From Phycisphaeraceae bacterium (lineage in GTDB: Bacteria; Planctomycetota; Phycisphaerae; Phycisphaerales; UBA1924), in the NCBI GenBank assembly GCA_019636845.1, contig JAHBWV010000001.1:1302001-1366000 (forward strand): a stretch of DNA of 64,000 bases, in the 5' to 3' direction. The notes under the pieces were generated by a model that was not told the origin of the DNA, ran no database searches, and saw only the letters and a list, made by a program, of their open reading frames with translations. Of the stretch, positions 33,185 to 35,362 are shown one piece after another. Within the stretch, counting starts at the first letter, position 1, and each line of letters begins with the position of its first letter. The position numbers were made by a program, and so were the translations under genes.

Positions 33185-33805
33185 TCAGTGGCGTGAGCGT
33201 GCGTAGCCCTTGCCGACGATGTATGTTTCTCGTGAGATATCTCGGCTGGCCTTGGGTTTGAAGATCCAGACAGATCCGAAGGCGGCGCGGCACTCTTTGA
33301 CGAAGTCTGGGAACTCTTCGCCCTCGAAGACCTTGAGGGTGGCGCAGCCGCCCGGGCGGAGGAGCGAGGGGAAGATCTCGAGTGCTCTTCGGCAGAGCCG
33401 GACGGAGAGGAAGTGGTCTCCGTGTCCGGTGGTGTTCGGGGCCATGTCGGAGATGACGACATCGAACTGGGGGGGCTGGCCTGTGAGTTCGGGGTAGGCC
33501 ATGGCGCGGAGCGTGATCGGATCCGTGGTGTAGATGTCGCCTTCCATGACGTTGACGTTGGTCATCTCAGGGACGCGGGTGCGGAGCAGGTCGATGCCGA
33601 CGACCCGTCCCTCGGGGCCGACGAGTTCGGTTGCGACCTGGAGCCACGAGCCGGGGGCGCAGCCGAGGTCGAGGACGCGATCTCCTCGCTTGATGAGGCG
33701 GTGGCGCTCCTGTATCTCTTTGAGCTTGTAGGCGGAGCGCGCGGCGTATCCCTCTGTCTTTGCCTGTTTGAAGTAGCGGTCATGGAGTTCGCGTTTGCGT
33801 GGCAT
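33185..33805 (-). CDS. rlmE: 23S rRNA (uridine 2'-O)-methyltransferase RlmE (FtsJ family)
   Basis: 206 residues. N-terminal RKRELHDRYFKQAKTEGYAARSAYKLKEI, then the SAM motif VLDLGCAPGSWLQ, VISDMAPNTTG, and the final K/E motif ETYIVGKGY. It 2'-O-methylates U2552 of 23S rRNA in the A-loop. Length is normal for the family. The start at 33805 (ATG) is chosen; the upstream open frame runs through a GGCAAATGGCAAA repeat and is not coding-like. Convergent with the HtpX-like gene. Confidence 0.93.
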   Translation of the reverse strand: MPRKRELHDRYFKQAKTEGYAARSAYKLKEIQERHRLIKRGDRVLDLGCAPGSWLQVATELVGPEGRVVGIDLLRTRVPEMTNVNVMEGDIYTTDPITLRAMAYPELTGQPPQFDVVISDMAPNTTGHGDHFLSVRLCRRALEIFPSLLRPGGCATLKVFEGEEFPDFVKECRAAFGSVWIFKPKASRDISRETYIVGKGYARSRH

Positions 33806-33812
33806 GGGGGAG

Positions 33813-33842
33813 ATGGCAAATGGCAAAGGGACACATGGCAAA
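33813..33842 (+). repeat. Solo copy of the GGCAAATGGCAAAGGG motif
   Basis: ATGGCAAATGGCAAAGGG (33813-33830) followed by a partial ATGGCAAA (33835-33842), located just upstream of the rlmE start. It matches the reverse complement of the right flank of the IVP cassette at 46606-46632 for 15 consecutive bases (GCAAATGGCAAAGGG). No IVP-like gene is adjacent. Possibly a solo end left by an excised or incomplete element. Confidence 0.55.
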
Positions 33843-33904
33843 CAGACAGTGGGGGCGTTCCGCACAGATGAGATTCAATCAGTGGAGCGGTGGATCGCGG
33901 CGTG

Positions 33905-34141
33905 TCAGTCGTCGTCGTCAGAGCGGAGGTCGTCGCGTTCTTCGGCCCAGTTGGCCTGGATGGTTTCGAGGATCTTCTCGTTCACGGGGTGCTTGGGGTC
34001 TGCTTCAAAGCCGGGGAGCGCCTCGACAAGGGCACGGAGTTCCGTGAAACGCAGCGTGTATGGATCGATCGAGGGGTGACGGTCGGCGAGTTCTTCGGCG
34101 ATCCGCTGGACGTCGAGCCACTGATAGTTGGAGTGTGCCAT
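33905..34141 (-). CDS. iscX: IscX-type Fe-S cluster assembly protein (Fe donor/regulator)
   Basis: 78 residues, acidic. The family pattern W-x-D-x2-RIAEEL ... PYTLRFTELRALVEALPGF ... NEKILETIQANWAEE fits IscX (YfhJ), a small winged-helix protein that binds IscS and iron and tunes Fe-S assembly. Its ATG overlaps the TGA of the preceding gene by one base (TGATG), so translation is coupled. It is the last gene of a four-gene operon with a 2Fe-2S ferredoxin at the head, but two unknown genes sit where hscA-fdx-iscX would be contiguous in E. coli. Confidence 0.9.
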   Translation of the reverse strand: MAHSNYQWLDVQRIAEELADRHPSIDPYTLRFTELRALVEALPGFEADPKHPVNEKILETIQANWAEERDDLRSDDDD

Positions 34142-34650
34142 CAGTTCACAAAGACCTCATCGAGTCGTGCGATCAGTTCGCGAAGCAATCTCAGGTATCG
34201 CTGCCCATCCGGTCCGCGCATTGTGGCGGCTATCGAGAACTGGTGGCAGGATGGAGCGATCCACGAGGCGGGTTTCATCGGATCATGCCAGGGATACTCC
34301 GGGTTCGGCCCGGCGGCAAAGCTGGGCGCTAGGCGTTCGATCTCGTAGGCAATCGGCAGGCATCGGTCGACGAGTTGCTGGAACTGCCTTGAATCCATGC
34401 CGAGCGTACGCGCGGCTCCTCGTTGATTGCGAAGCAGTCGGAGTGCCTTGACAATCGCGGCATGAGACAGGGCATCGGCACCAGACTGCTCGTCCGCGAG
34501 TCGTACCGCACGGCCGATCTTTTCTGACGTCATCTGCAGGTAGTGGAGCCAATGGCATGTGGCCATGCCGTCCTGCGAGACGAGCAGTTGGAACACGCTC
34601 AGGTCGCTCTCTGCCTGGCAGCGGAAGGCCTCGCTTCGATTCATCCTCAT
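34141..34650 (-). CDS. Unknown helical protein (HEPN-like?) inserted in the fdx-iscX operon
   Basis: 169 residues. The start at ATG 34650 is chosen because it overlaps the stop of the upstream gene (ATGA); an in-frame ATG at 34674 and one at 34644 also exist. The N-terminal half (SEAFRCQAESDLSVFQLL...CHWLHYLQMTSEKIGRAVRL) is a helical hairpin that resembles the helices of HEPN-type proteins, but I do not see the Rx4-6H catalytic motif, so RNase activity is not supported. The C-terminal part contains NPEYPWHDPMKPASWIAPSCHQFSI and ends in a helix with LLRELIARLDEVF. It is coupled to iscX downstream (TGATG). Confidence 0.7.
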   Translation of the reverse strand: MRMNRSEAFRCQAESDLSVFQLLVSQDGMATCHWLHYLQMTSEKIGRAVRLADEQSGADALSHAAIVKALRLLRNQRGAARTLGMDSRQFQQLVDRCLPIAYEIERLAPSFAAGPNPEYPWHDPMKPASWIAPSCHQFSIAATMRGPDGQRYLRLLRELIARLDEVFVN

Positions 34651-34943
34651 CCGACCTTTCGCGGCGTCGTCCATCCCGGTGGGAGACGCAGAGTTCCCGA
34701 CTGGTATCGCTTCCAGTCGTCGAAAGAGAGCAGAGCGATCTCGCTCGGATAGGGAAAGTCCGAAGATGCACCGAATCGAACGGCCGACATCACGCCGTTC
34801 TCAGGAGGAAGCGGCACCGCAGACACCTCGATCAGTCGGACAACCGTGCCGCTTGGATCCTCGGAAGCCCAGATCTCCGCGATGGTTTGGTCGGCCTGCT
34901 GGTGTGACTTTGCCAGTTCGGTCACTGCTTGCTGGTAGTTCAT
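34647..34943 (-). CDS. Unknown small protein inserted in the fdx-iscX operon
   Basis: 98 residues. A helical N-terminus (MNYQQAVTELAKSHQQADQTIAEIW) is followed by a beta-rich part with VRLIEVSAVPLPPENGV and the ending FDDWKRYQSGTLRLPPGW. CGGAG lies 7-8 bases before ATG 34943. The gene begins 20 bases after the ferredoxin stop and its stop overlaps the next start by ATGA, so it sits firmly inside the fdx-iscX operon. The VRLIEVS pattern and size suggest a small alpha/beta protein. No family recognised. Confidence 0.7.
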   Translation of the reverse strand: MNYQQAVTELAKSHQQADQTIAEIWASEDPSGTVVRLIEVSAVPLPPENGVMSAVRFGASSDFPYPSEIALLSFDDWKRYQSGTLRLPPGWTTPRKVG

Positions 34944-34963
34944 CGGCGTTCTCCGTCGTTCGT

Positions 34964-35362
34964 TCAGTGCGGCACTTCTTTGATGGCGTTGCGATTCCAT
35001 GCGGGGACGCGGACGACGATCGGTCCTTCGCGCTCGATCTCGCACTGGCAGGAGAGGCGGGAGTTTCGCTGGAGGCCCGGGGCCTCTTCGACTCGATCTT
35101 CTTCGGCCTCTGTGGGTTCGGAGAGGTTCTTTGCGCCTTCTTCGATGTAGATGTGGCAGGTGGAGCATGCGCAGACGCCGCCGCATGCATGCTCGATGTT
35201 GATGCCGTTGTCCATGGCGACTTCGAGCAGATGCTCGCCCTTGGCGGCCATGACCCTGTGCTCTTTCTGGTCGCCCCCTGTGAGTGCGTGCGGGTCTTCG
35301 AGGATGAATGTCACGGGGACCGTTTCCGGGCCGTGGTCGTGGTCGGAGCGTCGAAGATGCAT
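34964..35362 (-). CDS. fdx: ISC-type [2Fe-2S] ferredoxin
   Basis: 132 residues. The cluster ligands are C60, C66, C69 and C105 (C-x5-C-x2-C-x35-C, exactly the spacing of E. coli Fdx), with an extra C64 and C107 nearby (ACGGVCACSTCH). N-terminal extension HLRRSDHDHGPE is longer than usual. It supplies electrons for Fe-S cluster assembly. GAGG lies 9 bases upstream. First gene of the operon fdx - 98 aa - 169 aa - iscX. The ~290 bases to the divergent prfC start hold no obvious RNA. Confidence 0.9.
   Translation of the reverse strand: MHLRRSDHDHGPETVPVTFILEDPHALTGGDQKEHRVMAAKGEHLLEVAMDNGINIEHACGGVCACSTCHIYIEEGAKNLSEPTEAEEDRVEEAPGLQRNSRLSCQCEIEREGPIVVRVPAWNRNAIKEVPH

Follow-up and report, generated by a model that had tools for sequence, protein, structure and literature searches.

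A coupled gene pair of predicted HEPN and nucleotidyltransferase-like folds, lacking both catalytic motifs, between fdx and iscX of a Phycisphaeraceae bacterium

The fdx-iscX locus and its counterparts in relatives

The window analysed here is a 64,000-nucleotide stretch of the genome of a Phycisphaeraceae bacterium (G000:C1:1302001-1366000, G000 denoting the window's genome). On its minus strand, the ferredoxin gene fdx is followed by two genes, which we call A and B, then by iscX and by an rlmE/FtsJ-like gene (Table 1). The original prediction that fdx and iscX are split by genes of 98 and 169 residues is confirmed: A overlaps B in an ATGA (34650-34647), B overlaps iscX in a TGATG (34143-34139), and 20 nt separate the fdx stop from the start of A. 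The ATGA start of B is uncertain because its homologues align from the second ATG (34644, MNRSEAF); the true start may lie there, 2 nt past the A stop. The fdx product matches the NCBIfam fdx_isc model with an E-value of 1.4e-27 but scores under that model's curated cut-off. The gene prfC lies opposite fdx, and rlmE/FtsJ-like ORFs are also found 3' of iscX in relatives.

Table 1. Genes of the minus-strand unit, in the order of transcription
Gene	Position	Strand	Description	Evidence
fdx	34964..35362	-	[2Fe-2S] ferredoxin, ISC type; first gene of the unit	PF00111, 46.9 bits
A	34647..34943	-	98 aa; NTase (pol-beta/MNT)-like predicted fold without GSX10DXD; probable antitoxin-like partner	AF2, Foldseek, VIA-align
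B	34141..34650	-	169 aa; predicted HEPN fold without RX4-6H; probable toxin-like or RNA-binding partner	AF2, structure matches, PF05168
iscX	33905..34141	-	iscX	TIGR03412, 87.5 bits (above cut-off); PF04384, 82 bits
rlmE/FtsJ-like	33185..33865	-	methyltransferase gene after iscX	named by eye from sequence

The locus had been described as an isc operon. This holds insofar as fdx and iscX flank the pair, but the unit is not a whole operon of the proteobacterial type: fdx is its first gene, the rlmE/FtsJ-like gene comes next after iscX, and the sole IscU of the genome lies at G000:C1:2265711, ∼930 kb away. With IscU at this distance and no SufB/SufD-type protein found in the window's genome, fdx-iscX forms a separate small cluster; given the lack of a SufB/SufD hit, ISC is probably the main Fe-S route of this organism.

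The order fdx-A-B-iscX recurs in G357, a genome of another genus, so the arrangement is not due to chance. In three congeners fdx is 92-98% identical, iscX is adjacent to it at 28-64 nt, and A and B are absent; the site is empty. We surveyed this junction across the family at 62 loci with both fdx and iscX (59 once three doubly listed stretches were removed), and found that fdx and iscX are at most 169 nt apart at 49 of them and at least 326 nt apart at 10. Two of these wide junctions, in the window and in G357, hold A-B. That of G174 (L134:1392-1990) is filled by VapBC (antitoxin VapB plus a PIN protein), and those of G125 and G375 (L139:1216-1996; L156:2239-3022) by a small Rv0078B-like protein, above the Pfam cut-off in G125 only, together with a nucleotidyltransferase, which is AbiEii in G125 and matches NTP_transf_5 weakly in G375. 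Since A-B, VapBC and the Rv0078B-like/NTase pairs all occupy it in related genomes, the fdx-iscX junction is a recurrent landing place for dyads of the toxin-antitoxin (TA) type. Inserts of other kinds were seen on L147 and L159, where a 394-aa and a 224-aa open frame lie between fdx and iscX.

In the tree of B homologues the window's copy is sister to that of G357 (100/97). The simplest history for the two is therefore a single insertion that was then inherited, or else a transfer of the segment. Purifying selection seems to act on both genes, since divergence from the G357 copies at third codon positions (0.64 and 0.58 in the two genes) is about twice that at first and second positions (0.30-0.38). 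That the pair has stayed at fdx-iscX in both genera would fit some local use. The G357 copy of B (L003:1492-1998) carries an in-frame TAG, which may reflect decay or an assembly error.

Predicted folds and missing motifs

Searches of Pfam, NCBIfam and PADLOC gave no significant family for either protein of the window, and a PDB sequence search with profiles of A and B returned chance-level matches only. For B, the AF2 model (pLDDT 94.0) has HEPN proteins as its top three Foldseek matches (sacsin HEPN, AF_0298 and ST0689; probability 0.89-0.96). In VIA-align the first nine matches, mostly known HEPN proteins, score Z 7.4-10.6, values that are not decisive for helical bundles, and the next scores 6.5; the HepT toxins 7bxo (Z 9.2) and 7ae6 (Z 8.9) are among the matches. 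Sequence comparison backs the assignment. PF05168 (HEPN, CL0291) is matched by 14 of 55 B homologues (best E-value 4.5e-4), the B of the window itself being unmatched, and hhalign relates B to planctomycete PF05168 proteins at 84% (E 7.8e-6). As modelled, B has the HEPN fold.

The RX4-6H RNase motif, present in most though not all HEPN proteins, is missing: at most 8 of the 54 full-length B homologues have such a motif beginning at any one alignment column. The original prediction had seen a HEPN-like helical half and no catalytic motif in the larger product, a description that stands and now extends to the whole of B. Where class I HEPN toxins carry RX4HXY, B has the invariant segment NxEYPW. 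Aligned by eye, its EYP appears to correspond to the RYP of PF05168 members, so that the Arg would be replaced by the invariant Glu118 and the Tyr kept. The residues invariant in the 55-sequence alignment are Q12, Q39, E43, H63, P109, N116, E118, Y119, P120 and W121. Cys32 of B is near-invariant, and the alignment of A has no such Cys.

The AF2 model of A (pLDDT 97.2) points to a nucleotidyltransferase-like fold, an addition to what had been predicted for this locus. Its Foldseek neighbours are mostly nucleotidyltransferases (ANT(4'), 3c18, LinB), together with PIH domains, at E-values of 0.015 or worse, and the MNT antitoxin complex 7aer ranks 23 (E 0.29). All 50 of the matches listed by VIA-align belong to the pol-beta/Rel/GrpB/Tam41 NTase group, the best being the NTase domain of ANT(4') (Z 8.0 over 87 aligned residues). 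No Pfam NTase family, PF01909 included, matches A, and an hhalign comparison with 24 planctomycete MNTs gave a probability of 0.3, detecting no sequence relation. Because that comparison failed, we treat the kinship of A with MNT proteins as one of fold resemblance only, with middling Z-scores (at most 8.0).

At the position of the MNT GSX10DXD site, the loop and strand of A read like YYLPTNxxxREIRLIEV. Only 3 of 67 A homologues have G[GS] in the corresponding loop (GS is absent from 64 of 67) and 9 of 67 have an acidic pair on strand 2, even by a loose pattern; the single homologue with both lacks the X10 spacing. Arg occupies position 36 in 63 of the 67. With the GSX10DXD residues absent, nucleotide transfer by A through the known mechanism is very unlikely.

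Distribution and surroundings of the pair

Our search with B found 65 loci on genome contigs, and at every one of them an A homologue lies directly upstream (median spacing -4 nt; overlap in 39 of 64 pairs). Profiles of A and B, run separately on 343 genomes of the phylum, match the same 4, and within the order the pair occurs in ∼4 of 400 genomes. G331 and G313, the two weakest of six order-wide matches, were set aside as chance because both HMMs fail to detect A or B in them. About two thirds of the 65 loci are from Planctomycetota; the rest are from Armatimonadota, KSB1, Chloroflexota and Sumerlaeota and from one MAG each under the labels Thiotrichales, Acidobacteria, Lentisphaeria and unclassified bacterium, although MAG labels may be wrong. 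The nearest genome-contig relative of the window's B is on L022, a Phycisphaeraceae MAG. The carriers include a named strain, Roseimaritima sediminicola JC651 (L080). One KSB1 MAG, JAKEEU01, carries at least seven pairs (L023, L026, L027, L028, L032, L039); those on L032 adjoin Ser/Thr-kinase-like genes. Unlike many TA modules, A-B gave no match in the plasmid and phage collections searched by tblastn with the members tried, and viral contigs yielded a single relative of the pair. A-B is a strict, self-contained two-gene unit of sporadic occurrence across phyla and, being scattered, multi-copy and found in unrelated contexts, it has the features of a general type II-like TA module.

Association with isc genes is not conserved. 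Among the loci fetched with the pair, fdx and iscX adjoin it only in the window's genome and in G357. Elsewhere the neighbours are unrelated to one another and include a DNA topoisomerase, a class II tRNA synthetase, TsaE, a sulfatase, SAICAR synthetase, PRPP synthetase and carbamoyl-phosphate synthase, among others. These names come from a Pfam scan of the nearest ORFs, chosen by a simple longest-ORF rule, so that some picks are surely wrong; the scan replaced a clustering of neighbouring frames that had yielded mainly antisense shadows of A and B. At L041:888-12417 (JAJRPG010000096.1) the pair is embedded in a BREX-type operon. Two ORFs (262 and 186 aa) take the brxA/brxB positions there, followed by brxC (1537 bits), the pair and then pglX (1626 bits). 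In two Chloroflexi loci, L024 and L025, a HATPase gene is upstream of the pair, and at L024:5208-6005 A forms the C-terminal portion of a 265-aa frame that matches a receiver domain weakly (E 0.006). Frames of 265 aa in which A is fused to an N-terminal extension, with no family assigned to it, also occur at L030:5186-5983 and L048:1235-2032.

Interpretation and known systems

The account we favour, and consider reasonably probable, is that A-B is a self-contained HEPN/NTase-fold passenger module that entered the fdx-iscX junction in a lineage common to the window's genome and G357, whether by descent or by segment transfer. A module of two genes that rides along with the operon had been one option in the original prediction, and the heterogeneous neighbours of the pair and the empty site in three congeners support it. 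A-B is probably TA-like, and it is best read as related to HEPN-MNT (type VII) modules, or as mimicking them, in a catalytically degenerate form. We infer how the pair might act: B would be the toxin-like partner, perhaps a non-catalytic RNA binder or an inhibitor of translation, or else an enzyme with a different site made of the invariant Q39, E43, H63, E118 and Y119. A, translated just ahead of B, would neutralise it through tight binding rather than AMPylation, since A is without the residues that transfer AMP in MntA. Flanked on both sides by genes of a conserved operon, the pair would be co-translated with these and costly to delete.

The original prediction had also proposed a role in Fe-S biogenesis, which would make A-B an accessory factor of cluster assembly. 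The coupled order fdx-A-B-iscX in two genera and the apparent reliance of the organism on ISC speak for such a role, but nearly all homologues are located elsewhere, in unrelated contexts, the outcome that the original prediction had itself named as refuting its proposal. A-B is also missing from nearly all relatives that have fdx-iscX, and the proteins have no conserved Cys pattern that would fit cluster binding. We regard this role as very improbable; A and B are very probably passengers. A less improbable alternative, although still unlikely, is that the two form a domesticated regulatory or RNA-binding pair that tunes whichever operon hosts it, here fdx-iscX, and is not a TA module at all. 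Such a pair would resemble MtlR, a HEPN family of repressors, many of which are inactive. The absence of both catalytic motifs from essentially all homologues while other residues stay invariant speaks for this reading, A-B is often tightly packed in operons, and motif-less HEPN domains have been proposed to bind RNA (PMC3710099). However, a dedicated regulator is expected to follow its target, whereas A-B has unrelated neighbours, is carried in many copies by one MAG, and is absent from the same operon in close relatives.

The BREX copy raises a further alternative, namely that A-B serves as an effector pair in anti-phage defence (abortive infection) and that the fdx-iscX copy is one stray instance. 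HEPN effectors have been reported in BREX loci (PMC12839542), and the two Chloroflexi copies that follow a HATPase gene, one of them with A joined to a receiver-like part, point in the same direction. Nevertheless, defence-like contexts are seen at only a few of ∼67 loci and no PADLOC model matches A or B, and we consider this reading improbable, though less so than an Fe-S role. Returning to the passenger module, we put forward tentatively, and with rather more doubt than conviction, that A-B represents a third class of HEPN/NTase-fold dyads present in several phyla, in which both known active sites have been replaced, the HEPN protein acting through a new site (Q12, Q39, E43, H63, N116, E118, Y119) and the NTase-fold protein serving as a non-catalytic neutraliser.

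A dyad without either motif that is still strictly paired across phyla would show whether this pair of folds can work by binding alone, or would reveal an unrecognised HEPN active site. The locus also cautions against reading function from operon position, the fdx-iscX junction in this family having taken up three unrelated TA-type modules. VapBC and the Rv0078B-like/NTase modules share with A-B the two-gene form and the site, but belong to unrelated protein families.

The closest parallels to A-B are the HEPN/MNT dyads, in which the NTase gene comes first and the HEPN gene second (PMC3710099). In class I, the toxin is a HEPN RNase with RX4HXY, a tyrosine of which is adenylylated by the MNT protein; in class II, RX4H is missing, the Tyr is kept and the partner still carries the MNT motif, so that both classes have GSX10DXD in the MNT (PMC7641770). 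No biochemical study of class II modules had been made as of that report. Like HepT/MntA (type VII, class I), A-B is a tightly coupled, sporadic dyad whose NTase-fold gene, so assigned by predicted fold, lies upstream, and the model of B superposes on HepT structures. Unlike HepT/MntA, B lacks RX4HXY and A lacks GSX10DXD, and A, in contrast to MntA, is recognised neither by PF01909 nor by an MNT profile. Class II modules (PF05168 + PF01909) resemble A-B on the HEPN side: B is of the PF05168 type, lacks RX4H, keeps the conserved tyrosine and has the Q...EK...K helix motif, with EYP in place of the RYP of PF05168 members. The differences are that A lacks the GSX10DXD kept by class II MNTs and that, as aligned by eye, the Arg of RYP is the invariant Glu118 in B.

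HEPN is related to the substrate-binding domain of kanamycin nucleotidyltransferase/ANT(4')-type enzymes, and toxicity is reported, in work cited there, for HEPN proteins without the motif (PMC3710099). The modelled A is nearest the NTase domain of these enzymes and the modelled B is a HEPN protein; unlike ANT(4'), A-B is split into two proteins, the catalytic residues are gone and nothing points to drug modification. The Legionella RNase HEPN-Lpg, which needs Q44/E47 of helix 2 and Mg2+ but not RX4HXY (PMC11586414), offers a possible analogy for the invariant Q39 and E43 on helix 2 of B, although the spacing is Qx3E in B and Qx2E in HEPN-Lpg, and HEPN-Lpg retains RX4HXY and has an active MNT. 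As a HEPN/NTase-fold dyad, with the kinship of A predicted from its model, A-B is known in kind; what is new is that both catalytic motifs are missing.
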